Position numbers and translations under genes: made by a program
Shown here: positions 372 to 20,099 of the stretch, in pieces
Layout: every line of letters begins with the position of its first letter
Position numbering within the stretch: position 1 is the stretch's first letter
The notes under the pieces: generated by a model
What the model was told of the DNA's origin: nothing
Databases searched by the model: none
The model's input: only the letters and a program-made list of their open reading frames with translations
From: a virus
Length of the DNA stretch: 22,454 nt
Virus record (IMG/VR): IMGVR_UViG_3300000235_000018
Span: 5,577 to 28,030 of that record
Strand: one strand, 5' to 3'

Positions 372-731
372 ATGAATTTTGAACGAATGTCTAAAATTTT
401 GACCGATGACAGACCATTATATGAACCACCTTCCATAAACAATCTACTTAATGAGAATGTTGATATCGTTAAGGATGATGAAGATGCTTTATATAATGGT
501 ATTTTAATGGGAAAAAATGTAGTATTAAATTCATATATTGATATATATGATGTAAATGACAGGGTAGTATATATCACTAAAAAAAGAAAAAACATAACAG
601 AAGTCAAGTTTTTTTCTGAAATGAGGGAAATGGTTGATATTATTATAGAAATGTGTGATAATATGTCCTGGCAGTTTGAAGAAGATGAAACAGAAGAGAA
701 CATTATTTTTAAAATAAAGGTAAGTATATGA
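372..731 (+). CDS. Hypothetical acidic protein ahead of the ART-like cluster
   Basis: A 119-residue acidic protein of unknown function. I chose the ATG at 372 because GAAGGA lies 6 bases upstream. An earlier in-frame ATG at 330 has no ribosome binding site, and its codons form the leader hairpin. The N-terminal half has a disordered-looking DDRPLYEPP segment, and the C-terminal half alternates strands and an acidic helix. No catalytic motif is visible, and it lacks the MKLxxFLNE start of the following five genes. Its stop overlaps the next start (ATGA at 728-731), so it is probably co-transcribed and translationally coupled with the first ART-like gene. Confidence 0.6.
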   Translation: MNFERMSKILTDDRPLYEPPSINNLLNENVDIVKDDEDALYNGILMGKNVVLNSYIDIYDVNDRVVYITKKRKNITEVKFFSEMREMVDIIIEMCDNMSWQFEEDETEENIIFKIKVSI

Positions 732-1330
732 AATTACAGACATTTTTGAATGAAGATACTGATATAGACTTTGATACTGTTCTAAAAGAATGTTCAGAGA
801 TCGTTGATATATATAAACAAATCAAGAGTTTCTTGTATCGTGGGTCAAAGCATAACTTTGCACAGGATATAACTAAAATAACCCCAAGAACAGACAGAAG
901 GCCATTAGACTCAAGTGTTGAAGTATCCAGAAAACTTGATGATGAGTTTTATAAGAGATTCAAATGGAGGCCAAGATCAGAAGGTGTTTTCTGTACAAGC
1001 ACTCTTTCAAATGCACATACTTACGGTGATTCATATATATTTTTTCCTAAAAATGGTTTTAAATTCGTTTGGTCAAGAAAATTCGAGGATTTTTACTCAA
1101 ATATCTATGATGCCTACTATAGTGAGTATTATACTACAGTTGATATAAATAAGTTTTTTACATTAGAAGATAAGTATATGGATTTTGAAAAGATTGTCTC
1201 TGAATATACCAATAGGGATATAAAAGATGCCATAGAAATAGGACATGAAATGATGTTTAAATGTGATTACTACTACATGGCAGATTACACGGAGACAAAT
1301 TATTTGAAGTTATTGAATTCGTTGGATTAG
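728..1330 (+). CDS. ART-like putative capsid-packaged protein, paralogue A1
   Basis: A 200-residue protein, first of five paralogues. Residues 1-9 (MKLQTFLNE) form a short amphipathic start ending in LxE, which matches the T4 gp21 prohead-protease cleavage preference and resembles the capsid-targeting sequence of T4 internal proteins and Alt. The body fits an ADP-ribosyltransferase pattern: Arg38 in LYRG, a VFCTS strand at 87-91 (S-T-S equivalent), and Glu174 in GHEMMFK near the C-terminus (ARTT-loop equivalent). The residue two before Glu174 is Gly, not the usual Glu or Gln, so activity and target are uncertain. The ribosome binding site is AAAGGTAAG. Inferred role: an NAD-dependent modifier injected with the DNA. 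It could also be an inactive fold or a related NAD-binding family. Confidence 0.6.
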   Translation: MKLQTFLNEDTDIDFDTVLKECSEIVDIYKQIKSFLYRGSKHNFAQDITKITPRTDRRPLDSSVEVSRKLDDEFYKRFKWRPRSEGVFCTSTLSNAHTYGDSYIFFPKNGFKFVWSRKFEDFYSNIYDAYYSEYYTTVDINKFFTLEDKYMDFEKIVSEYTNRDIKDAIEIGHEMMFKCDYYYMADYTETNYLKLLNSLD

Positions 1331-1339
1331 GGGAAGTAT

Positions 1340-1969
1340 ATGAAATTACAGACATTTTTGAATGAAGATACTGATATAGACTTTAATACTGTTCTAAAAG
1401 AATGTTCGGAAATCATTGATATTTATAATGATGTCGGAAAGGTTTTGTATCGTGGATCAAAGAGCCATTCAGCAAGTTCAATCATAAAGGTATATCCGAG
1501 AAATGATAGGAGACCATTAGATATGCCTATATACATATCTAATGCCCTTGATGATGAATTTTATCAAATGTTTGATTGGAAGCCAAGATCAGAAGGTGTT
1601 TTCTGTACGTCAGATTATAATGTTGCCTCATCCTATTCTAACAATTATGATAGAATGGCTTATGTTTTCTTCCCAAAGAATGGTTTTAAGTTTTTATGGT
1701 CTACTGACTTTGAGGACTTGTTTTCAGATGTTTTCGATTGTAATAATGACGATTATAAGACATTCGATGATGATAATGATGATGAAGATGAAGAAGATTA
1801 TGATTATAGAGGATGGGAATGGGATTATGAAAAGATAGTGTCCACCTATACAGATAAGAACATAGGGAACGCAATAAGATCTAGGAACGAGATGGCTTTT
1901 AAGTGCGACTGGTATTATCTGGTAAACAAAGATGATGCAACTATGTTGTCTTTTTTCGAGAATTCTTGA
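1340..1969 (+). CDS. ART-like putative capsid-packaged protein, paralogue A2
   Basis: A 209-residue paralogue of the preceding gene. Residues 1-15 are almost identical (MKLQTFLNEDTDIDF), and the LYRG (Arg38), GVFCTS (86-91) and NEMAFKCD (Glu184) motifs align. It differs by an insertion at about 138-157 made almost entirely of Asp and Glu, which lies before the conserved WEWDYEKIVSTYTDKNIGNA block. The ribosome binding site GGGGAAG is 4 bases before the ATG, and the gap to the previous stop is 9 bases, so they are one operon. The near-identical starts and diverged middles suggest recent tandem duplication followed by divergence, perhaps towards different host targets. Confidence 0.6.
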   Translation: MKLQTFLNEDTDIDFNTVLKECSEIIDIYNDVGKVLYRGSKSHSASSIIKVYPRNDRRPLDMPIYISNALDDEFYQMFDWKPRSEGVFCTSDYNVASSYSNNYDRMAYVFFPKNGFKFLWSTDFEDLFSDVFDCNNDDYKTFDDDNDDEDEEDYDYRGWEWDYEKIVSTYTDKNIGNAIRSRNEMAFKCDWYYLVNKDDATMLSFFENS

Positions 1970-1988
1970 AGATTACGGTGAACACTGC

Positions 1989-2612
1989 ATGAGATTAAAC
2001 AAATTTCTTAATGAAAACAATAATATAGATTTCAACGATATCATAAAAGATTGTTCTGATATCATTGACATATATAGGGAAACAAATAATGTTTTATTTC
2101 GTGGCATAAAATATTGTAAGGATAACCAAGTAATTTCATTGATATATCCCAGAAATGACAGAAGGCCTGTAGACACACCGGAAGAAATTTCAGACGATTT
2201 GGATGATGAGTTTTATAAGAGATTCAAATGGAAACCGAGGAGAGAAGGTGTTTTCTGTACATCAGATAGTTCCACAGCAAAGAGTTTTGATGGGAATAGA
2301 GAATTACGCATAGTTTTCCCAAAGAATGGTTTTAAGTTTTTATGGTCTGATACCTTTGATGACTTGTTTTCAGATGTTTTTGAAAAACATAACATAAGTT
2401 ATGCAAAAATAAAAGGGGATAACTATGATTATTATAATGAGTGGGAATGGGATTATGAAAAGATAGTGTCCACCTATTCAGATAAGAACATAGGGAACGC
2501 AGTGAAATCGGGGAATGAGGTAATGATCAAATGTAATTACTATTATTTGGTTATATTGAGTGAAGCTACTGATTTTATTAATAATTTAGAGATCACGGTG
2601 AATACTACATGA
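1989..2612 (+). CDS. ART-like putative capsid-packaged protein, paralogue A3
   Basis: A 207-residue paralogue. The frame is open back to 1932, but the ATG at 1989 restores the family start MRLNKFLNEN and has the ACGGTGA ribosome binding site shared by the next two genes; the upstream 19 codons lie mostly inside the previous gene. Motifs are Arg38 in LFRG, GVFCTS (87-92) and Glu177 in GNEVMIK, the most ART-like version of the C-terminal motif in subfamily A. The WEWDYEKIVSTYSDKNIGNA block is nearly the same as in paralogue A2. The stop overlaps the next ATG (ATGA at 2609), implying coupled translation. Confidence 0.6.
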   Translation: MRLNKFLNENNNIDFNDIIKDCSDIIDIYRETNNVLFRGIKYCKDNQVISLIYPRNDRRPVDTPEEISDDLDDEFYKRFKWKPRREGVFCTSDSSTAKSFDGNRELRIVFPKNGFKFLWSDTFDDLFSDVFEKHNISYAKIKGDNYDYYNEWEWDYEKIVSTYSDKNIGNAVKSGNEVMIKCNYYYLVILSEATDFINNLEITVNTT

Positions 2613-3355
2613 GATTACAGAATTTTTTGAATGAGGGTAGAGGTAAGGAACTATCGAAAGAAGAGGCTCTTGACTTTGTTTTAACAAAGTGCACAGATTC
2701 TGCTGTGACTACGGCAGATCATTTATATAGGGGATATGAAGGCCCAGAATATGTTTTGGTTGATCCAACAAAGTTTTCCGAAAGAGAAAGCCCTAATGCA
2801 ATAAACAACTATTACAATTTATTGTTAAGCAATCTACCGAGTTGGTCTAAATACCCGAAACGTAACAAATCCATTGTGGCGTCAACAAATTCTAAATATG
2901 CGAGTCATTACGGTGATTTGTACTTTGTCCTTCCTGTTGACAACACAAAAATGGGTCTATGCCCGGAAAATGATTTGTGGATGTCATTCGGCAAATCTGG
3001 TGTGCCCATCCTCGATGATTTAAACAGAATATTGACGAATGTGGTGGGTGACAGGATAGATAATTGGCGTGAATTAAAAGAGGCCCTCATGCAAGCATAC
3101 TTTGATGAAACCGAGGATTTTAATTATGTCCAAGATTTATTCGAGCAACATGGCTGCGATGTTCAGATACAGCCAGGTAAAGAGATTAACAATTGGCTTG
3201 ATTTGGTCGAAAACATACTTGAACCAGACAGGAATGGCTTTGATTTAATTAATATAAGAAAATCTTATCCTTTAAATAGGGAGGTTTGGTTTGACCGCCC
3301 TTGCATATTAGTTCGTGAGGATGAATATGATGAATTTTCTAAAGATTTTAGGTGA
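2609..3355 (+). CDS. ART-like putative capsid-packaged protein, subfamily B, copy 1
   Basis: A 248-residue protein of a second subfamily with the same start (MRLQNFLNEG). Conserved marks are Arg41 in LYRG, the NNYYNLLLSNLPSW helix (67-79), a YPKRNKSIVAST segment with Ser-Thr at 92-93 (S-T-S equivalent), GLCPENDLW (116-124), and Glu225 in NREVWFD near the C-terminus. I recognise this YYxLLxxNxPxWxxYPKR...ST family from many T4-like phage genomes, where it is usually left hypothetical. R-ST-E order and C-terminal placement fit the ART fold, although the residue two before the Glu is Asn. The LxE start again suggests head packaging and prohead-protease trimming. Confidence 0.6.
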   Translation: MRLQNFLNEGRGKELSKEEALDFVLTKCTDSAVTTADHLYRGYEGPEYVLVDPTKFSERESPNAINNYYNLLLSNLPSWSKYPKRNKSIVASTNSKYASHYGDLYFVLPVDNTKMGLCPENDLWMSFGKSGVPILDDLNRILTNVVGDRIDNWRELKEALMQAYFDETEDFNYVQDLFEQHGCDVQIQPGKEINNWLDLVENILEPDRNGFDLINIRKSYPLNREVWFDRPCILVREDEYDEFSKDFR

Positions 3356-3390
3356 AATATGACGATTTCAAAATAATTTTTAAAAAATAC

Positions 3391-3398
3391 TATAAATA
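3391..3398 (+). promoter_or_regulatory. T4-type late promoter (TATAAATA)
   Basis: An exact TATAAATA octamer lies 46 bases before the ATG at 3444, in the only sizeable gap (88 bases) inside the ART-like cluster. It would give the last ART-like gene its own late transcription, as expected for a virion component. Confidence 0.6.
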
Positions 3399-3443
3399 GA
3401 TTATAGAAGAGATCAATTATTTGAGGATTACGGTGAATACTAT

Positions 3444-4193
3444 ATGAGATTACGAAATTTTTTGAATGAAGATAGAGGCACGGGAATATCAAAAGAAGAG
3501 GCTTTTGACTTTATTAAAACAAAGTGCATAGATTCTGCTGTGAATTCGGTGAATCATTTATATAGGGGATACGAGCGGGGCCCAGAATATGTTTTAATTA
3601 ATCCAACAACGTTTTCTGAAAGGGAAAGCCCTGGTGTAGTAAACAAATATTATAATTTATTGTTAAACAATTTACCGAGTTGGTCTAAATACCCAAAACG
3701 TAACAAATCCATTGTGGCATCAACGAGTCATAGTTATGCAAATACCAATAGTGATTTGTACTTTGTTTTCCCGGTGGCTGGTGCAAAAATGGGTATGTGT
3801 CCAGAGAATGATTTGTGGTGGTCATTCGGCAAATCTGGTATACTCGCCATCGATAGTTTAAACAAAATATTGGCAAATGTAGTGGGTGACAGGATAAATA
3901 ACTGGCATGAATTAAAAGAGGCCCTCATGCAAGCAAAGTTTGATGTAATCAAGGATCTTGATTATGCCCAAAATTTATTTGGAAAATATGCATGTGAATT
4001 GGTAATACAGCCAGATAAGGAGACTAATACCTGGTTTGATTTGGTCGAAAACATACTTGAACCTGACAGGAATGACTTTAATTTAATTAATGTACGCAAA
4101 TCTTATCCTTTAAATAGAGAGGTTTGGTTTGATAGTCTTTGTGTAATGATTCGTGGAGATAAATTTAACAAATTTTCTAAAGATTTTAGGTAA
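3444..4193 (+). CDS. ART-like putative capsid-packaged protein, subfamily B, copy 2
   Basis: A 249-residue close relative of the preceding gene, sharing the start (MRLRNFLNED), LYRG (Arg41), the YPKRNKSIVAST strand, CPENDLWWSFGKSG, the ILEPDRNxFxLIN block, and Glu226 in NREVWFD. The upstream 18 bases (ATTACGGTGAATACTAT) nearly repeat those before the two previous genes, so the duplicated unit included the ribosome binding site. Changes cluster in the middle third (for example SHSYANTNSD against NSKYASHYGD). Its 3' end overlaps the converging uvsW gene by 8 bases. It has its own late promoter at 3391. Predicted NAD-dependent transferase activity is inferred only. Confidence 0.6.
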   Translation: MRLRNFLNEDRGTGISKEEAFDFIKTKCIDSAVNSVNHLYRGYERGPEYVLINPTTFSERESPGVVNKYYNLLLNNLPSWSKYPKRNKSIVASTSHSYANTNSDLYFVFPVAGAKMGMCPENDLWWSFGKSGILAIDSLNKILANVVGDRINNWHELKEALMQAKFDVIKDLDYAQNLFGKYACELVIQPDKETNTWFDLVENILEPDRNDFNLINVRKSYPLNREVWFDSLCVMIRGDKFNKFSKDFR

Positions 4194-9792: not shown

Positions 9793-10050
9793 ATGCTCGT
9801 ACAGATTCTAACATCCGACAAAAGCAAGGGTTTATGGTACTATGGAAAGAACTTTCAGGTTTTTGATGTAGAAGAGAGAGAAGATGACAATAAGATGTTT
9901 TATTTAACTAAAGATCAATTGAGAAGAATGAAGAAAGCAACTCATCTTGATATAGGTATTTTGAAAGAAGATACTGATAAGGTGGGAAGCAGGGATGGTT
10001 CTGATTGCATTTACAATATTGAAAATTTCTTAAAATTGATTGGAGATTAA
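9793..10050 (+). CDS. Hypothetical protein
   Basis: An 85-residue protein of unknown function. The ATG at 9793 is preferred because AAAAGGA lies 7 bases upstream; an in-frame ATG at 9751 lies within the MazG-like gene. The sequence looks like a small beta-rich fold (LVQILTSDKSKGLWYYGKNF, then FDVEEREDDNKMFYL) with a basic helix. The stop overlaps the NADAR start (TAATG), so translation is probably coupled. Confidence 0.6.
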   Translation: MLVQILTSDKSKGLWYYGKNFQVFDVEEREDDNKMFYLTKDQLRRMKKATHLDIGILKEDTDKVGSRDGSDCIYNIENFLKLIGD

Positions 10051-10475
10051 TGATGATACGAGGATTCTTCGGTGAAAATAGATTCATGTCCAATTTTTAT
10101 GTCTGTGAAGATGGGTATTGTGTGGAAACTGAATATCAGGCTGCTAAATTTGAAAACGATGAAATTAAAGGAAAGATTTCGAGAATGACGCCAGGTAAGG
10201 CAAAGATGTTTGCTAAAAGAAATCCTGATCTGGTAAGGAAAAATTGGAAATCTGTAAATGTTCTTGTAATGAATAATCTTATCAGAGAGAAATTCAAGAA
10301 TGACCCCGAACGGTCAATGTTAGAAAATACAGGGAACCATATACTTGTTGAAGATAATAACTGGCATGATAATTTTTGGGGTCATTGCCATTGTTCAAAA
10401 TGTAGAAAAGAACCAAAACACAATGTTTTAGGTAAAATCTTAATGAAGATAAGGCAGGAAAACAGAGGTGATTAA
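10050..10475 (+). CDS. NADAR (YbiA-like) family protein
   Basis: A 141-residue NADAR-domain protein. Family marks are FFGENRFMSNF (6-16), the VETEYQAAKF helix (25-34), NWKSVNVLVMNNLIREKF (65-82), ML.NTGN..LVE (90-101), WHDNFWG (105-111) and NVLGKILMKIR (125-135). NADAR proteins act on N-glycosidic bonds; some act in riboflavin metabolism, and others remove ADP-ribose from guanine, reversing DarT-type toxins. A Cys/His-rich insertion (HCHCSKC, 112-118) comes before the last motif. In this genome, which also encodes ART-like proteins, ADP-ribose removal or counter-defence is an attractive guess. Two adjacent ATGs exist (10050, 10053). Confidence 0.88.
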   Translation: MMIRGFFGENRFMSNFYVCEDGYCVETEYQAAKFENDEIKGKISRMTPGKAKMFAKRNPDLVRKNWKSVNVLVMNNLIREKFKNDPERSMLENTGNHILVEDNNWHDNFWGHCHCSKCRKEPKHNVLGKILMKIRQENRGD

Positions 10476-11353: not shown

Positions 11354-13102
11354 ATGTTTAATGATGTCTGGTATAATACCAGAACTAATAAGATTCATTT
11401 GTTTGAGATAATAGGGAACGACAGACTTTATTCAGAAATAGACTGGGTTCCATATTTATTTGAAAAAACAAGTGATCCATCTGATATAAAGACAATAGAA
11501 GGGGATTTTGCAAAAAAGGTAACATTTGCAACATATTCCGATTATTATGAACATCAAAAATTTAATCATAACTATCTTGAAAATGCTGTAAGACCGGAGA
11601 TTCAATTTTTAGCAGAAAGATACCATAAGATAACAGATGAGGAAATGAAAACAGGCAAGTTAAAGATAGGTTTTATTGATATTGAGGTACATATTACAGG
11701 TAAAGACTTTCCTAAACCATCGGAGGCAAAGGAACCTGTTGTGCTTATTTCTGTCTATGATTCAAAAACAAATACGACAAAGAGTTTTGGTACAAAACCG
11801 TATGATGGAAAATACAAGGATGAACCTTGGTATGTATATGTATTCTGTAAAGATGAAGAGATGTTGTTGAGACAGTTCTTCCTTTATATGCATAAGGAGA
11901 GATTTGATGTAATTTCTGGCTATAACGTAGTAAATTTTGACTTACAATATTTAATCAATAGAGTAGAGAGAATTACCGGTGATGACTCTATGTATAAGTA
12001 CTTGTCACCAATAAAACAATTAAAAATGTGGTCTAAAAAGGATTCAGATGATGTAAATGTAGATATTGCAGGTGTGAATGTACTTGATTTTATGGAACTA
12101 TATAAATGGTATAGTCCTACAAAAAGAGAACGGTATACCCTTGATTTTATTGCTAAATCAGAATTAAGCAAGGGCAAAGTAGACTATTCAGTCTATAATG
12201 ATTTGAGACAACTTTATAACGATAACTGGAATTTATATGTAGAATATAATGTAATTGATGCATATCGTGTTGGTCAGTTAGAAGAAAAGTTGGGGTATAT
12301 AAAACTGGTACAGTCATTATCCCTACTAGCCAAAGTACCTATGAAATACTATAAAACACAAACTACTTTGATCGAGGGTGTTGTTTTGACTTATTTGAGG
12401 AGAAACAATATGTGCGCACCCACTTTTTATGGTGGCGTTCAGGAAACATTCCCGGCTGCTTGGGTTAAAGAGCCACAAAAAGGCTTTCATAAATGGGTTA
12501 TTGATTTAGATATAACAAGTTCATATCCGAGTGCAATTATTGCGTTAAATATGTCCGTTGAAACATTTTATGGAAGAATACAGGGAATTTCAGAAGATCA
12601 GATGGTTATTTATACGAAAGATAGAAAATATCCTGAATTTAACATGATGAAAGACTCTGGTTTAATTAAGTTTGAAGGAAAAAATTTATTGTTGTTTAAT
12701 AAGGCTTTAGAAAAAGGTTTATTTGCAATAGCTCCGTGTGGTTCAGTATTTTCAACGAAACAAAATGGTCTTATTTCATCTATTGAGAGGCAAGTTTTTG
12801 ACAAACGTGTTTCAGTAAAAAGAAAAATGAATGATTTAAAAAAGACTCTTGTAACCTTATCGGGTGATGAACTTGCCTTGACAAAGGAAAATGTTGCCAG
12901 ATATAACAGTCTACAGAACGTCCTTAAATTGATCTTAAATAGTATGTATGGTGCAACAGCAACACCTTATTCAAGGTATTTTAACGTAAACATAAGTGAG
13001 GCAATAGTTAGTGTAGGCCGTCATACCATAAAGACAGCAAATAACATTGTAAACACACTACTTAATAATCCTACCAAGGAAATGCTTGATTTGTTTAGGT
13101 AA
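11354..13102 (+). CDS. Family B DNA polymerase, N-terminal part (exonuclease and motifs A, B)
   Basis: A 582-residue N-terminal part of a T4 gp43-type replicative polymerase. The 3'-5' exonuclease has Exo I FIDIEV (D109, E111), Exo II NVVNFDLQYL (D196) and Exo III YNVIDAYRV (D302). The polymerase palm and fingers have motif A DITSSYPS (D386) and motif B KLILNSMYG (525-533). The protein then stops at TAA in 13100-13102, before motif C, the second catalytic aspartate pair, which is on the separate 13333 gene. The two parts total 873 residues, the usual size for this family, so little is lost. The two chains presumably assemble into one enzyme, as in phages with known split gp43. An AAAAGGAG ribosome binding site precedes the ATG. 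Confidence 0.93.
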   Translation: MFNDVWYNTRTNKIHLFEIIGNDRLYSEIDWVPYLFEKTSDPSDIKTIEGDFAKKVTFATYSDYYEHQKFNHNYLENAVRPEIQFLAERYHKITDEEMKTGKLKIGFIDIEVHITGKDFPKPSEAKEPVVLISVYDSKTNTTKSFGTKPYDGKYKDEPWYVYVFCKDEEMLLRQFFLYMHKERFDVISGYNVVNFDLQYLINRVERITGDDSMYKYLSPIKQLKMWSKKDSDDVNVDIAGVNVLDFMELYKWYSPTKRERYTLDFIAKSELSKGKVDYSVYNDLRQLYNDNWNLYVEYNVIDAYRVGQLEEKLGYIKLVQSLSLLAKVPMKYYKTQTTLIEGVVLTYLRRNNMCAPTFYGGVQETFPAAWVKEPQKGFHKWVIDLDITSSYPSAIIALNMSVETFYGRIQGISEDQMVIYTKDRKYPEFNMMKDSGLIKFEGKNLLLFNKALEKGLFAIAPCGSVFSTKQNGLISSIERQVFDKRVSVKRKMNDLKKTLVTLSGDELALTKENVARYNSLQNVLKLILNSMYGATATPYSRYFNVNISEAIVSVGRHTIKTANNIVNTLLNNPTKEMLDLFR

Positions 13103-13314
13103 ATATCTATTTACCTGAAATCAATAAAGCAATAGAGTATAATGGTATTTACTGGCACTCAAGTACTTATAGTAAATACAAAGATGAACAAAAAGTAATT
13201 CAATGCCAGCAGAAAGGCATAGGTTTACTGGTTATTCTGGAAGAAGAATGGGCACAAGACAAAGAGCTGTGTTTAAAAAGGATTAATGACTTTATTGTTG
13301 ACAAATTTGTTTAA
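13099..13314 (+). pseudogene. C-terminal remnant of a VSR-like homing endonuclease
   Basis: Between the two polymerase parts, the frame from 13099 encodes 71 residues with no start codon. It reads VNIYLPEINKAIEYNGIYWH, then KGIGLLVILEEEW and a basic helix, ending at TAA (13312). This matches the C-terminal half of the VSR-like (EDxHD) homing endonucleases, which carry a (E/D)IYIPxxxIAIEYNGxYWHS core and a GIxLIxIFEDEW strand. The N-terminal DNA-binding part is gone, and the Asp expected just before IYxP is Asn, so it should be inactive. The frame is -1 relative to the upstream polymerase part and in phase with the downstream one. It explains how gene 43 was split. Confidence 0.75.
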
Positions 13315-13326
13315 AAGGAGTATAGT
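13298..13326 (+). promoter_or_regulatory. Sigma70-type promoter for the second polymerase part
   Basis: TTGACA (13298-13303), a 17-base spacer and TATAGT (13321-13326) lie inside the end of the endonuclease remnant. The expected transcript start, about 7 bases after the -10 box, falls at or next to the ATG at 13333, so the mRNA could be nearly leaderless. The spacer contains AAGGAG, 12 bases before the ATG, which could serve only on read-through transcripts. The palindrome ACAAATTTGT (13301-13310) overlaps the -35 box. Confidence 0.6.
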
Positions 13327-13332
13327 GTTTAT

Positions 13333-14208
13333 ATGGAAAACATAGAAAACATAGATTATGTCTTGTACGGTGACACAGATTCATTATATATAAACCTCGG
13401 CAGGTTTATGGAAAAACACCTGTCCAAGGATACAGTACTGGAGGAACAGGGTATACTTGATTTTATTCATAAACTGTCAAAGGTTATTGAGCTTCATGTA
13501 AACAATGAAGCCTTTAATAGGATACAGAAACAAGAATACAACTCACAGGTTAATGACTTTAAAATAAAATTTAAACAAGAAGTTATTGCAAAGACTATCT
13601 TGTTTGTAAAGAAAAAGAAATACTCTTCATGGATTATTGATGAAGAAGGTGCGGTTGTTGACACTATAAAGACAACAGGCCTTGAGATTGTTAGGTCTGA
13701 CACGCCTGAGATGGTAAGGCCCATGCTCAAAAATATAATGTCATTAATCCTTAAAGAACATACGGATAAAGAAATATCTGATTATATATCTGTATGTGAA
13801 AAGGTATTAAAATCAGCAAAGCCTGAAGAAATATCAACTAATATAGGTGTCCATGAACTATCTAAATATATTAGTGTGGATAATTCTTATAAAAAAGGGA
13901 CGCCCTTTCATATAAAGGCCGTTGCAAATTATAGAACTATATTGAAAATGTTTAAGTTATCTGGTAAATATGAGGATGTAGTAGATAGTTCAAAAGTCAA
14001 GATTATATATGTAAAACCTAATAAATTTGGCTTTGAAAATATGGCCTTTTTAAGATGGCCAAATGAAATTGACAATATGATCCAAATAGATTATAATAAA
14101 CAGATAGAAAAGGTTTTTCTAAATAAAGTTGAGATTCTACTTGATCCTATGAATAAGAATGATTTATTGAGACAGGAAGATGGCAAGATTTTAAACATGT
14201 TTTTTTAA
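13333..14208 (+). CDS. Family B DNA polymerase, C-terminal part (motif C, thumb)
   Basis: A 291-residue second part of the gp43-type polymerase. It begins shortly before motif C, YGDTDSLY (12-19), whose two Asp residues bind catalytic metal. Then come the KKKKYSSW DNA-binding motif (residues 92-99) and the thumb domain. The C-terminal end KILNMFF resembles the hydrophobic tail by which T4 gp43 binds the sliding clamp. It needs the 11354-13102 product to make a complete active site. The start MENIENIDY follows an AAGGAG at 12 bases. A tandem 9-base repeat (GAAAACATA twice) encodes ENIENI at the start, near the rearranged junction. Confidence 0.92.
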   Translation: MENIENIDYVLYGDTDSLYINLGRFMEKHLSKDTVLEEQGILDFIHKLSKVIELHVNNEAFNRIQKQEYNSQVNDFKIKFKQEVIAKTILFVKKKKYSSWIIDEEGAVVDTIKTTGLEIVRSDTPEMVRPMLKNIMSLILKEHTDKEISDYISVCEKVLKSAKPEEISTNIGVHELSKYISVDNSYKKGTPFHIKAVANYRTILKMFKLSGKYEDVVDSSKVKIIYVKPNKFGFENMAFLRWPNEIDNMIQIDYNKQIEKVFLNKVEILLDPMNKNDLLRQEDGKILNMFF

Positions 14209-14938: not shown

Positions 14939-16057
14939 ATGGAGAAACAAGAAATTAAAAAACTATTTGCCAATAATCTATTAGAAACCTCTAAATTACC
15001 TATAGAAGAACATATCCTACATGAAAAATGGATGGAATTAAACAATACTTCATATACAAGCAAGGATTTACAATCAATATATGAAGTAAAACAACAAATC
15101 TGGATTCCAACAAATGCAGATTCTTATATGGATTTAGAGCCGGAAGTGATTTTGGCAGACAGTAAAGTAAATTCCCAGATATGGACTACATTAAGAAGAT
15201 TTACCTCTACCGCCAAATGGTCACAGTCTCCTGGGAGATTTGCTAAATTTCTCATAAAAGATAAGAAAACACAGACATATCTTGGTGTAATAAGTATAGG
15301 AAGTGATTTCATTTCTATAGGTGGAAGAGATAAACACATTGGCTGGAATACGAAACATAAAATGGATAATCATAGATTAAATTATCTATGCATGGGCAGT
15401 TCTATTGTGCCTACTCAACCTTTAGGATATAATTTTACTGGGGGCAAACTTATTGCCTTATTGACAGTAAGTGATGTAGTAGAAGATTGGTGGAATAATA
15501 AATATAAGGAAAAATTAGTAGGAGTAACAACTACTTCTCTATATGGTAATAAAGGTATCAGTCAATATACTGGATTACATGCCTGGCATCAATGTGAATT
15601 TTCTAAAGGTAACGTGACATTAGAGCCATCTGAAAAAATATACGTTTTATTGAAAGAATGGGTAAAGGAGAAGTTTCCGAAGAAATATGAAGAACTTATG
15701 ACATCGAAAAAAAGTGGGCCAGTAAGTCATGTAAGACCGAGATTGTTATCCATTGCACACAAAGAGCTTGGTGTGAAAGCAGTGAATAATCAGTTTAGTA
15801 GGGGTGTTTATTTTTGTGAACTATACGATAATACTAAAGAATTTTTATGTTGTAAAACAGACATATTAGGCAACAAGAAATTCGACAATTCCGTAAAAAC
15901 ATTGTCTGATATATGGAAACAAAGATATGCCAGAAAAAGGATAAACAAATTGGTTAAGGAAAACAAGAATAATAATGATATATTATTCTATGATTCTTTA
16001 ATAGATATGACTTGGGAAGAAGCAAAAAATCAGTTTTTAGTAAATGTAGGTAGATAA
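14939..16057 (+). CDS. DUF4338 (DruA-like) family protein
   Basis: A 372-residue protein of a family widespread in T4-like phages and, to my recognition, related to DUF4338, the domain of Druantia defence protein DruA. Conserved stretches are LGVISIGSD (95-103), GGRDKHIGWN (108-117), LNYLCMGSSIVPTQPLGYN (127-145) followed by GGKLIALL, LVGVTTTSLYG (172-182), RGVYFCELYDNT and FYDSLIDM near the C-terminus. The biochemical activity is unknown. In cells DUF4338 proteins occur in anti-phage islands; in phages they may be a domesticated relative used for superinfection exclusion or DNA handling. The ribosome binding site AAAGGA is 9 bases upstream. It closes the plus-strand block and converges on the tail operon with a 4-base gap. 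Confidence 0.6.
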   Translation: MEKQEIKKLFANNLLETSKLPIEEHILHEKWMELNNTSYTSKDLQSIYEVKQQIWIPTNADSYMDLEPEVILADSKVNSQIWTTLRRFTSTAKWSQSPGRFAKFLIKDKKTQTYLGVISIGSDFISIGGRDKHIGWNTKHKMDNHRLNYLCMGSSIVPTQPLGYNFTGGKLIALLTVSDVVEDWWNNKYKEKLVGVTTTSLYGNKGISQYTGLHAWHQCEFSKGNVTLEPSEKIYVLLKEWVKEKFPKKYEELMTSKKSGPVSHVRPRLLSIAHKELGVKAVNNQFSRGVYFCELYDNTKEFLCCKTDILGNKKFDNSVKTLSDIWKQRYARKRINKLVKENKNNNDILFYDSLIDMTWEEAKNQFLVNVGR

Positions 16058-16495: not shown

Positions 16496-17563
16496 TTATG
16501 AAAGAATAAGTTGTTCAATCTGCGGTAACACGTTTTGGTAAAAATTACACATGGGGAATCTACTTGTTAATGACCCACCGGATAAAACACGATCAGCAAA
16601 ACATCCGCCTTGACAATAATTTTTAACTGAACAATCAGAACATTCGGGCTGATTTTCCCATTTACGACGTATGTCTTTTTTGACAGCAACTTTATTGATA
16701 ATATCATCATCGTAAATCGATCCGACGCCTGCGAAAGAACACGCCGAGTCTCGTGTACACGATGTAATCTTCCCGTCTGGCAAAACTGCGAACAGTCGGC
16801 GACCACACGGCCACATCGATCCATTAAAACTTGGGGTGATCGATATTTCATCAATGAACATTGAGTAGTTGTATCGAGGCTTGTATTTACGGCTTTTGCA
16901 AATAGGCAAAATTCTGTCAAAGGTAGATATCAATTCTTTTTCATATTCTGGCCGATGATCGGTAGCATTGTGATAGCTCTTGATATAAAAATTATTATCT
17001 ATAGCATAATTGACTATATCCTCTGCACGTTCCATATTAAGTTTATCCCACACGAAAGTCAGACCTTGCTTGCCAGGATTGTCTGGGGTGTGAATGTCTA
17101 TTATATGCATTCGCCGTTCGATTTCTTGCATGGTTAAATCAGTAATATGTAGTGTCCATTGGTTAATTCGCACAACATCATTCCAGTCAATTTTATCAAG
17201 CAAATCACCATTTGTATGAATGATTCCGAGCATACCGGGAGTTTTCTCAAAAACAATGTCCATGAGACGTTTAATTTTGGTCGCTTCGAGCAATGGTTCT
17301 CCACCAAGAAATACAACCATCCCAAGCAAATAGTTGTGTTGTTGATATGTGGCAGGTAGCCATTTGCATAATTGTTGAAATGTCTGTTCGTCCATTGATT
17401 TGTTTGGTGTTAATTGGTTGGATACATAACAAAAATCACATTTTCTTGTACATTTCTGCGTCAAAGATACTTCCGCCCAATATAGAGGGAAATATTTCCA
17501 TTCGCCCTTACCAACAATTCTGTTATCAGTATTTTTGAATAAATCCACCAACCATTGATCCAT
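16496..17563 (-). CDS. Radical SAM enzyme with SPASM domain (protein maturase)
   Basis: A 355-residue radical SAM enzyme with a full SPASM domain. The N-terminal CxxxCxxC (C38, C42, C45) binds the SAM cluster, and GGEP (87-90) binds SAM. The C-terminal region follows the SPASM pattern exactly: C253-x10-G264-x4-C269, then C308-x2-C311-x5-C317-x3-C321 and C339, enough ligands for auxiliary Fe-S clusters. Such enzymes modify peptides or proteins (formylglycine, thioether or carbon-carbon links). No ligand is missing, so it looks active. It abuts the ligase-like gene and follows fibre and adhesin genes in a phage late operon, so its substrate may be a virion protein. The ribosome binding site GGGAGGA is strong. 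The exact reaction cannot be read from the sequence. Confidence 0.9.
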   Translation of the reverse strand: MDQWLVDLFKNTDNRIVGKGEWKYFPLYWAEVSLTQKCTRKCDFCYVSNQLTPNKSMDEQTFQQLCKWLPATYQQHNYLLGMVVFLGGEPLLEATKIKRLMDIVFEKTPGMLGIIHTNGDLLDKIDWNDVVRINQWTLHITDLTMQEIERRMHIIDIHTPDNPGKQGLTFVWDKLNMERAEDIVNYAIDNNFYIKSYHNATDHRPEYEKELISTFDRILPICKSRKYKPRYNYSMFIDEISITPSFNGSMWPCGRRLFAVLPDGKITSCTRDSACSFAGVGSIYDDDIINKVAVKKDIRRKWENQPECSDCSVKNYCQGGCFADRVLSGGSLTSRFPMCNFYQNVLPQIEQLILS

Positions 17564-18334
17564 CTATTCCTCCCTTATTTGTTGTACCATTAAATTTTCT
17601 GATATTTCAAGTTTTGGAAATCCTTCTAAATAAAATCGATCTAATGTATTTAGTTCATTTTCTGTTGCCTTTTCTTCGTATGTGTCAAAAGAACATAAAC
17701 GAGCAAATTCATCAATAAAGTCATTAATCACATCATCTTTATCAATATTTATTGATGTTAGATCGGTTGTATATTCACGTGCAGTTTTCCCTTCGCTTGA
17801 AAGGGTTTTGAAATACTCACTCTTAATTGCTGAATCGTATAAATCATAATCCATTATGATATTTATACGGCAAATTATTGCTCGCGGCATAATAACACAT
17901 CCAGCAATTTTCTTCCCTTCGAGCAAAATATCGTTTCCAGTTATTAAACTTCCAGGGATTGCTATCTGGCAAGCAGACTTCATGGCATCAAAAAAGAACA
18001 AACTATTGCGTTGATCATTTTGTTTTTTATATGTGAAGGAAAAGGCAATGCCAACGTTGGATACGTAAAGCCTCGGATGTTCTGATAAGCCGTTAGGATG
18101 GATAAATAAAACAGCCCCTTCTTTAGCCATTTTATTAGCATTAACGAGATATGCAAATTTTTTTTCATGCCTTTGTGGATTATAGCTAACACTAATAAAT
18201 TTATCATTAATAACCCATACGCCGAGGGTTGGGTCATCACTATCAAGCCAAGTTGATAAATTCTCAACTCCCGTCCCGTTTTGACGTTTTTCTGGCAATT
18301 TATCTCTTGTGCTTCTCATAATTCTCATATTCAT
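17564..18334 (-). CDS. Lipoate/biotin-protein-ligase-like protein
   Basis: A 256-residue protein that aligns by eye with LplA/biotin-ligase catalytic domains: VWVINDKFISVSYNPQ (39-54, like 'lWrN...viGr.QNp'), a VSNVGIAFSFTY strand (91-102), GNDILLEGKKIAG (133-145) with the likely catalytic Lys142, then INIIMDYDLYDSAIK (158-171, like 'gtLLlnaDl..l'). The glycine-rich RRxSGGG loop of true lipoate ligases is replaced by HPNGLSEHPR, so the substrate may differ or activity may be lost. The start at 18334 is chosen for AAGGG 7 bases upstream; an in-frame start at 18373 lies inside the adhesin gene. It abuts the radical SAM gene, suggesting a joint role. Confidence 0.55.
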   Translation of the reverse strand: MNMRIMRSTRDKLPEKRQNGTGVENLSTWLDSDDPTLGVWVINDKFISVSYNPQRHEKKFAYLVNANKMAKEGAVLFIHPNGLSEHPRLYVSNVGIAFSFTYKKQNDQRNSLFFFDAMKSACQIAIPGSLITGNDILLEGKKIAGCVIMPRAIICRINIIMDYDLYDSAIKSEYFKTLSSEGKTAREYTTDLTSINIDKDDVINDFIDEFARLCSFDTYEEKATENELNTLDRFYLEGFPKLEISENLMVQQIREE

Positions 18335-18344
18335 ATTTATACCC

Positions 18345-19331
18345 TTACATAAGATAGACCGCCACTGTTCCATTTACGCCAGATGTCCCTGATGTCCCGT
18401 TTGTTCCGGCGATTGCACTAACTCCATTGAGAGATGCTCGTCCACCACCACCCCCTTGTGAATAGGTAGCATTGCCGCTACCACCGTAATTACCAGACCC
18501 GTATGAATTATATGATGAGTTAATGCTGCCACCAGTTCCACCGGATGCGCCGGTACCAGCTGTTGCCGTGACGGTGCCCATTGCCGTGAGATTTTTATAT
18601 CGAATCGTTACTGATCCGCCATCACCACCACAACCGCCGCCGCCGCCGCCGCCGCCGCCGGAACAACCGTAATAAGTGTTTTTCCCATCAGATGTTGAAT
18701 AAGCAACTCCGGCCCCACCATTATTACCTACGCTGCCGGAGGACCCATTTGCATTAATGGAATTAACATTATTAAGGATGAAAGCATTAATTGAAACACT
18801 CCCACCTCCTTTACCACCTGCGCCTCCTGCGCCTCCTGCGCCACTATTGGCAAGCGATGGTTCCCCACCACCAGAGCCACCGCCGCCCCCGCCTTTACCA
18901 CCCGCTCCAGTACCATCAGAGCCAGCACCACCAGCAACACCCGTCGATGCCGATGCGGCACCGCCAGTTCCGCCAGTTCCGCCAGTGGGCCCGGTAGAAT
19001 TGGTAATAATACCATTATTAAGCAAAGTCCCTGTGCAATAAATAAAAAATCCCGCAGTATTAAGTGTTATTCCTGAATTGACCGTAAGGTTTGTGTAATT
19101 CTTATTTGATGCCAAGGTTGTATTGCTTGAGATAGTTACTGCACCATCAGCACCCGTCCCAAAATTAGTGTAGGTTCTACCATGAAGATCATGCATGGTA
19201 ATAACGCCAGACATCTTGTTCGCAAGAACCCGGACATTCGTGTCGTTAAGAGTAATTTGTGCTGTTGACGACTTTCCAAGTTCTACATTTACTTGCCCGA
19301 GGCTGATTGTTCCACTTGTAGGAAGTGTCAT
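18345..19331 (-). CDS. Glycine-rich tail-fibre adhesin
   Basis: A 328-residue virion protein. Residues 1-50 (MTLPTSGTISLGQVNVELG start, later SGVITMHDLHGR) match a very common phage fibre N-terminal module. Residues 65-115 are a short beta-rich stretch. The rest is dominated by Gly-rich runs (GGTGGTGG, GGKGGGGGGSGGG, GGGGGRAS), as in the polyglycine-II receptor-binding adhesins at T4-like fibre tips. A loop reads C223-S-G9-C234. The region is clearly GC-richer than the genome average because of Gly codons. It starts behind AGAGGAGAT and follows the S74 fibre gene directly, the usual place for a distal adhesin. Likely role: host receptor binding. Confidence 0.8.
   Translation of the reverse strand: MTLPTSGTISLGQVNVELGKSSTAQITLNDTNVRVLANKMSGVITMHDLHGRTYTNFGTGADGAVTISSNTTLASNKNYTNLTVNSGITLNTAGFFIYCTGTLLNNGIITNSTGPTGGTGGTGGAASASTGVAGGAGSDGTGAGGKGGGGGGSGGGEPSLANSGAGGAGGAGGKGGGSVSINAFILNNVNSINANGSSGSVGNNGGAGVAYSTSDGKNTYYGCSGGGGGGGGGCGGDGGSVTIRYKNLTAMGTVTATAGTGASGGTGGSINSSYNSYGSGNYGGSGNATYSQGGGGGRASLNGVSAIAGTNGTSGTSGVNGTVAVYLM
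18634..18660 (-). repeat. (CGG)9 trinucleotide tract encoding polyglycine
   Basis: Nine uninterrupted CCG units on the plus strand (CGG on the coding strand) encode most of the Gly9 run between C223 and C234 of the adhesin. Slippage would change the loop length in steps of one Gly without breaking the frame. Confidence 0.85.
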
Positions 19332-20099
19332 TTATCTCCTCTTTAAAAATATTATTTCTTCTTGCAGCTCTTTTATTGCCTCAACAAGTAACGGGATAAG
19401 ATGGTCATATTTGATTGTCATATATTTAGGGTCAATAGGAGCAGGTGCAATTGCTTCTGGCAACACTTTTTGTACTTGTTGTGCAGACAGTCCGACTTCA
19501 AGGACTGGTGTATAACCTAAAGATTGTGCAAGATCGTTTGCGTGGTAATGGAATCCATTAAGAGAACATACTTTATCAAGAGCGTTTTTGATGTTACCCA
19601 AGTTAGTTTTCAATCGGTCATCTGAATAATATGCTGTAATATTTGCTGTTGCTGTAATTGCTCCTGTAATTGCTGTAGCTCCTGCTGTTAATGTCCCATT
19701 AACAGCCAATTTTGCGGCAGGGGTTGTTGTGCCGATGCCAACATACCCATTATTCAGAATCGTCACCGCCTCTGTAGCGCCATTATTCCCGACTTTGAAG
19801 TGCATATCAGCCCCGGTTGCACCAACGCCAGAAGTGGTCTGAAGAACCAAATCCTGCGTAGTGGACGTACCACCGAGAACTGTCGGAGTAGTAACCAGAG
19901 TGAAAGCCCCGGACGCCGGAGTTGTGTTGCCAATAGTTGGCGGAGCGGCGAAGACATTATCCAGATTACTCGGCACAAGTGCCTTGTCGGTAGCAACATG
20001 AGCGACTGCTTCCGCATCAGTTGCGATTTCAACTATCCCCGCAAACGTAGTGTCTGCAACTGCACTACCTTGCATTGCCCTTATAAGTACTGTTGTCAT
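19332..20099 (-). CDS. Tail-fibre protein with C-terminal peptidase S74 chaperone
   Basis: A 255-residue fibre protein. The middle has the GYVGIGTTTPAAKLAV repeat-type motif (118-133) common in trimeric phage fibres. The C-terminal 100 residues are an intramolecular chaperone/auto-protease (peptidase S74): SDDRLK with the Ser159-Lys164 dyad, YHANDLAQSLGY, EVGLSAQQVQKVLPEA (201-216), the IKYDHLIPLLVEAIKELQ helix and a short coiled-coil end. The chaperone trimerises the fibre and then cleaves itself off near Ser159. It starts behind GGTGGAG and abuts the adhesin gene. Confidence 0.9.
   Translation of the reverse strand: MTTVLIRAMQGSAVADTTFAGIVEIATDAEAVAHVATDKALVPSNLDNVFAAPPTIGNTTPASGAFTLVTTPTVLGGTSTTQDLVLQTTSGVGATGADMHFKVGNNGATEAVTILNNGYVGIGTTTPAAKLAVNGTLTAGATAITGAITATANITAYYSDDRLKTNLGNIKNALDKVCSLNGFHYHANDLAQSLGYTPVLEVGLSAQQVQKVLPEAIAPAPIDPKYMTIKYDHLIPLLVEAIKELQEEIIFLKRR

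Follow-up and report, generated by a model that had tools for sequence, protein, structure and literature searches.

What a phage would gain from a radical SAM/SPASM enzyme and a lipoate/biotin-ligase-like protein encoded side by side, directly behind its tail fibre genes, and on which protein the two might act, is the question raised by the locus studied here. The locus lies in the window, the whole 22,454-nucleotide stretch that was analysed, which comes from an IMG/VR record of 28,030 bases. Our results suggest that in some phages the tip with which bacteria are recognised is finished chemically, through a module that we find in two unrelated phages.

The four-gene module of the window

The module consists of four genes on the minus strand. 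The first encodes a tail fibre of 255 aa (19332-20099) with a C-terminal Peptidase_S74 intramolecular chaperone (PF13884, 44.9 bits) and matches to many PHROG tail-fibre families, and the second a Gly-rich, adhesin-like tail-tip protein of 328 aa (18345-19331) with phrog_26817 and phrog_13336 at its N-terminus. The third encodes a 256-aa LplA/BirA-superfamily-like protein (17564-18334), here called the ligase-like protein; its ORF is able to open at 18373, but we place the start at 18334 because the N-terminus MN(M/F)RIMR is kept in the homologue of a second phage, L009, described below. The fourth, an intact ORF of 355 aa (16496-17563), encodes the radical SAM/SPASM enzyme, for which the coordinates proposed in the first-pass annotation are correct. 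The two enzyme genes abut directly, as had been claimed, the TAG of one being followed at once by the ATG of the other, with GGAGG upstream of the radical SAM start; the S74 fibre and Gly-rich genes lie directly upstream of the pair, in agreement with the position after fibre and adhesin genes reported at first pass. The accompanying designation of a late operon is a reading of the fibre gene alone.

The radical SAM enzyme carries the cluster motif C38xxxC42xxC45 (CTRKCDFC), GGEP at residues 87-90 and SPASM cysteines at 253, 269 (with GxxxxC), 308/311/317/321 (CX2CX5CX3C) and 339, which bears out the full set that had been read from the sequence, and in an alignment the motif and SPASM cysteine positions are invariant in seven relatives. 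It scores above the cut-off for the TIGR04085 SPASM model (42.0 bits against 27) and for Fer4_12, and just below it for PF04055 (28.8 bits against 29.5); the protein is a radical SAM superfamily enzyme with a SPASM domain. The top Foldseek matches of its predicted model (pLDDT 55) are radical SAM structures, with ChlB, CteB, anSME and SkfB as the best structural neighbours. At the level of families, it falls under the cut-off of all curated maturase equivalogs (PapB, CbpB, anSME, QhpD and SCIFF among them), the best score being 61.7 bits against 340 for PapB. The CxxxCxxC, GGEP and SPASM cysteines are common to the radical SAM/SPASM maturases anSME, QhpD, PapB, CteB and ChlB; unlike these, the window enzyme is partnered with a Gly-rich tail protein and not with a peptide precursor, a sulfatase or a dehydrogenase.

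The ligase-like protein of the window has no Pfam or PHROG match, and its NCBIfam matches to LplA_LipA_fuse (E 0.008) and BirA (E 0.08) are both sub-threshold; PF03099 is matched, at 12.1 bits against a cut-off of 21, in the L009 homologue only. Two sequences underlie its AlphaFold model, which is of low confidence (pLDDT 38, pTM 0.38), and we make use of the fold match only because all top matches agree: the first 28 PDB structures returned by Foldseek are all of LplA/BirA type, led by E. coli LplA (E 1.3e-4, probability 1.00). Comparison with LplA by hhalign (E 0.011, probability just 3.8%) is not significant alone. In remote profile alignment, GND...EGKK aligns with RND...DRK of LplA and TAREYTTDL with SVRSRVTNL, so that GND 133-135 and K141-K142, which are conserved in L009, align with RND 121-123 and K134 of the E. 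coli protein. With LplA, BirA and LipB (PF03099) the protein has in common the ND...K and VRSRVTNL-like motifs and, judging by the Foldseek matches of the low-confidence model, perhaps the fold; it differs from them in missing both the HHG motif and the RRxGGGxVxHDxGN substrate/adenylate loop, in whose place both homologues have PR(L/V)Y(V/I)S. It likely belongs to the LplA/BirA superfamily, as predicted, with a changed ligand pocket, and the loss of the hallmark RRxGGG loop makes the predicted ligase activity uncertain. The label "lipoate/biotin-ligase-like" given at first pass is accordingly fair by fold search, with weak HMMER support and without the loop. Beyond L009, homologues were found neither in viral contigs nor, as a weak negative, in 10 genomes of the cellular kin described below or in 395 and 399 genomes of two phyla. 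Lipoyl assembly, which joins LplA or LipB to LipA, follows a ligase plus radical SAM logic; the pair resembles it in that an LplA-like and a radical SAM protein occur together, and differs in that the latter is a SPASM and not a LipA-like enzyme and that no lipoyl-domain substrate is seen.

A search for homologues of the Gly-rich protein matched L009 alone, and phmmer gave no match between it and solved gp38. Like the T-even gp38 polyglycine tip adhesins (S16, PP01; PMC12892980), it is Gly-rich with loops and encoded directly after the fibre; its N-terminal domain differs from theirs, and PMC12892980 describes no radical SAM partner. Non-glycine identity between the window and L009 proteins is 56% overall and 13/14 in segment 207-223, a loop reading AGVAYS(T/A)SDGKNTYYGC that includes K217 and C223. 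Its conservation is notable because in gp38-type adhesins the loops between glycine runs, which bind the receptor, are hypervariable (PMC12892980), and it might also reflect a receptor common to both phages. Over the whole protein, the conserved cysteines are C99 and C223 and the conserved lysines K39, K77, K146, K217 and K246. A formylglycine signature of the sulfatase type (CxPxR) is absent from both cysteines (CTGT at C99, C[ST]GG at C223).

Other parts of the window hold features of separate interest. Five tandem paralogues (728-4193; phrog_11975/12810) show a YRG...EGVF(C/A)TS pattern reminiscent of ADP-ribosyltransferases, with an extra copy of the paralogue at L002:211-789, and the same phage has a NADAR-domain gene of the ADP-ribose glycosidase family (10050-10475; PF08719, 67.2 bits). 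The DNA polymerase (11354-14208; PHROG 262) is divided between two ORFs that cover profile positions 17-565 and 569-837 with a 230-base gap, a split that an inserted element or a frame error may explain, and a DruA-like protein (14939-16057; PF14236, 64 bits) is encoded convergently with the tail operon.

Recurrence of the module in a second phage

Scans of viral contigs with single-protein queries for either enzyme gave no matches, and an alignment query was required; the scan with the radical SAM alignment found IMGVR_UViG_3300042991_000932 (L009). Annotated phages provided generic radical SAM proteins only, at about 22% identity. With genes for a tape measure, tail fibres, a J-like tip and a tyrosine integrase, the L009 contig has the appearance of a temperate siphophage; its backbone differs from that of the window phage, whose replication genes are different and AT-rich. 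The S74 fibre, Gly-rich, ligase-like and radical SAM genes follow one another in identical order, the Gly-rich and ligase-like genes are 10 nt apart in the window and 9 nt apart in L009, and in both modules the two enzyme genes abut or overlap. Identity amounts to 82% over the C-terminal 116 aa of the fibre, 68% in the Gly-rich protein, 43% in the ligase-like protein and 77% in the radical SAM enzyme (full length). No further window ORF of at least 60 aa matches L009, barring frames nested within the four genes.

Since the four-gene block is all that is common to the window and L009, the enzymes travel with the fibre tip, and since the whole layout recurs, the arrangement is not due to chance. 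The module behaves as a host-recognition module that has passed en bloc from one phage backbone to an unrelated one. Unrelated phages are documented to exchange fibre and helper genes (PMC10579305), and the modules of Alteromonas phages A5 and V22 (PMC10579305) likewise unite a fibre and a helper common to unrelated phages; their helper is a chaperone, whereas the helpers here are two enzyme-like genes. Conservation of the pair beside a Gly-rich adhesin had been set in advance as a check, and a second phage of unrelated backbone has it; no relative was found in which the pair lies far from tail genes, the condition that had been named as a refutation.

Codon comparison of the radical SAM genes of the two phages counts 123 identical, 151 synonymous and 81 non-synonymous codons, so that 151 of the 232 differing codons are synonymous, and the gene is therefore under purifying selection; the protein sequence is kept despite divergence in GC content. 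On the 3′ side of the L009 gene lie a terminator-like hairpin, a sequence resembling a tRNA 3′ end and the integrase gene (L089:16540-17258), a region that is probably an attachment site and in which ARAGORN called no full tRNA.

Cellular and viral relatives of the radical SAM enzyme

The best ten cellular matches to the radical SAM enzyme among 84,980 species genomes show 31-33% identity over the full length and come from MAGs of anaerobes (Deltaproteobacteria, Desulfotomaculum, Dehalococcoidales). These closest cellular kin (L094-L103) form an uncurated radical SAM/SPASM family distinct from TIGR04317, a model that gives 24 bits in the window phage (cut-off 380) and nothing above cut-off in the kin genomes searched. 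They share with the phage enzymes an N-terminal GxGxWxKxPLFW motif and differ in setting: MoeA, MobB, TupA and AFOR-type tungsten oxidoreductases are encoded around the cellular genes, and fibre, Gly-rich and ligase-like proteins around those of the phages. In a 70-sequence tree, with this family representing the cellular SPASM enzymes, the window and L009 enzymes join the cellular kin (100/98) on a long branch (0.91), with the phage sequence L010_7977 next (100/99).

The phage with this last sequence has a tail cassette (L010:1643-8984) composed of a minor-tail-like protein of 1036 aa, a 197-aa protein, a radical SAM enzyme, proteins of 254 and 293 aa that have no family matches, and a second radical SAM enzyme; a J-like protein upstream of the cassette carries a Cys-rich insert. 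Fusobacterium phage phiKSUM (L007:1918-12185) has a radical SAM gene in its tail region, after a 2030-aa protein and near both an S74 fibre and a protein sharing an N-terminal domain with the window Gly-rich protein, and Campylobacter phage CP20 (L165:44041-49596) has a cluster in which genes with radical SAM motifs occur together with a glycine amidinotransferase gene and one that bears the name BtrN.

Many of 79 viral radical SAM loci also hold a protein with cysteine repeats, such as (CTCNCNYC)n or (CPCNCNF)n, and CETGCE repeats occur as well. These proteins reach 26 Cys per 60 residues, and several terminate with SDxRLK, the sequence that opens S74. Counting non-overlapping genes with at least 11 Cys per 60 aa, we found a Cys-repeat protein within three genes of the radical SAM gene in 20 of the 42 independent viral locus clusters, in 1/34 cellular radical SAM loci and nowhere in control phage DNA (248 kb from T4, P-SSM2, phiKZ, lambda and CP20). 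A looser cysteine threshold was dropped, being positive also at cellular radical SAM loci (18/37). A reverse search with DNA encoding CNCNYCTCNC, a motif chosen after the first set had been seen, returned 33 loci, 26 of them with a radical SAM gene; as 22 of the contigs were already in the first set, the new contigs number 11, with a radical SAM gene in 6, and 4 of the 5 without one are fragments no longer than about 6 kb. This association supports tail proteins as targets of phage radical SAM enzymes generally, and the Cys-repeat loci are possibly a large undescribed class of radical SAM-matured phage tail proteins. Neither the window nor L009 has a Cys-rich gene, and for want of such a partner their module is a Gly-rich variant.

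Viral radical SAM/SPASM genes frequently occur two to five in tandem beside Cys-repeat proteins, among others at loci L012, L014-L018, L020, L030, L035, L037, L039 and L045, and further at L055-L059, L062, L066, L072, L073 and L082; the last of these loci seems to derive from an isolate genome.

Candidate roles of the enzyme pair

Of the possible roles of the pair, we favour the maturation, after translation, of either the tip protein or the fibre, in which our confidence is evenly balanced with our doubt. The four genes would constitute one exchangeable host-recognition module: the S74 protein would be the fibre and the Gly-rich protein its tip, and the two enzymes encoded downstream, made from the mRNA that also encodes fibre and tip, would mature the tip during assembly in an anaerobic host. 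The radical SAM/SPASM enzyme would install a radical-made change (a cross-link, epimer, oxidation or similar), with the Gly-rich protein as the most likely target; the LplA-like protein may modify a lysine with a small acyl group, or act as a substrate-binding or transfer partner. We infer the substrate (Gly-rich protein or fibre), the order of the steps, their chemistry and the anaerobic host; the Gly-rich protein is our best guess for the radical SAM substrate, its loop 207-223 (K217, C223) being a candidate site only. Tip maturation draws support from the block's same order and spacing in L009, from the invariant radical SAM/SPASM cysteines and purifying selection, from the proximity of the radical SAM model to SPASM structures that modify peptides and proteins, from the frequency of Cys-repeat/S74 proteins at phage radical SAM/SPASM loci and from the known swapping of host-recognition modules with cognate helpers between phages of different families (PMC10579305). 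The first-pass annotation had proposed that the pair modifies a virion or host protein; what L009 and the other phage radical SAM loci uphold is the association with tail genes, and not the modification itself.

Several findings count against tip maturation. Two copies only are known, and their co-transfer could be a matter of physical linkage; the pair is, moreover, the 3′-most part of the common module in both phages, and in L009 it is last before the terminator, tRNA-3′-like sequence and integrase gene, the usual site of a moron. It might then be a moron at the far end of the tail operon, as lambda has lom near its tail fibre genes, and modify a host surface or defence protein or a metabolic enzyme without any role in the virion. 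We hold this to be somewhat unlikely, given that the pair has moved along with the same fibre and Gly-rich gene between unrelated backbones and that other phage radical SAM/SPASM genes adjoin tail-like proteins. The neighbourhood of the nearest cellular enzymes (32%) is likewise one of tungsten/molybdenum and not of peptide maturation, and the phage enzyme, which resembles them over its full length, N-terminal extension included, and joins them in the tree, may have kept their role in maturing a host tungsten/molybdenum (AFOR-type) enzyme, with the ligase-like protein as helper. We consider this improbable: no tungsten/molybdenum gene is seen in either phage module, the next branch in the tree is a phage with a tail-side radical SAM cassette, the window/L009 branch is long, and the TIGR04317 score is far from its cut-off.

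The lack of a Cys-rich partner in the window and L009 also counts against tip maturation. SPASM enzymes commonly mature small peptides, and the best NCBIfam similarities of the radical SAM enzyme are to PapB, CbpB and Nif11-type peptide maturases, all far below cut-off; that the pair makes a RiPP from a small precursor, unconnected to the tail, nevertheless receives very little credence from us, as the two modules have no conserved coding-strand small ORF in common, barring the four genes and frames nested in them. The ligase-like protein, finally, has lost RRxGGG, falls under every curated cut-off and is the fastest-evolving of the common genes, and a gene after a fibre often encodes the fibre's chaperone (PMC10579305). 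It would thus be conceivable, though very unlikely to our mind, that this protein is no enzyme and instead assists, as a chaperone, in folding or assembling the tip protein, with the radical SAM enzyme acting alone; the exclusively LplA/BirA-type top matches in the fold search and the retained N-D and Lys positions speak for a ligase relative instead.

Tip maturation admits a more specific and bolder form, to which we give a low probability: the tip would carry a cofactor-like group made on the virion in two steps, the LplA-type protein charging a lysine of the Gly-rich protein (K217, for example) and the radical SAM/SPASM enzyme then altering or cross-linking it, and the module would be one branch of a wider and so far undescribed class of radical SAM-matured tail proteins that includes the Cys-repeat S74 fibres. 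In a literature search of incomplete coverage we came upon no description of a radical SAM enzyme acting on phage tail proteins, in keeping with the first-pass statement that no phage system of this kind has been described, and the literature found on phage radical SAM genes mentions them without a tail role; the novelty of the system is provisional. If tip maturation is true, radical chemistry finishes the receptor-binding tips of some phages, and host recognition gains a layer that is invisible to sequence-based fibre analysis and missed by aerobic recombinant expression. It would also provide a function for many phage genes that are now just named "radical SAM domain-containing protein".
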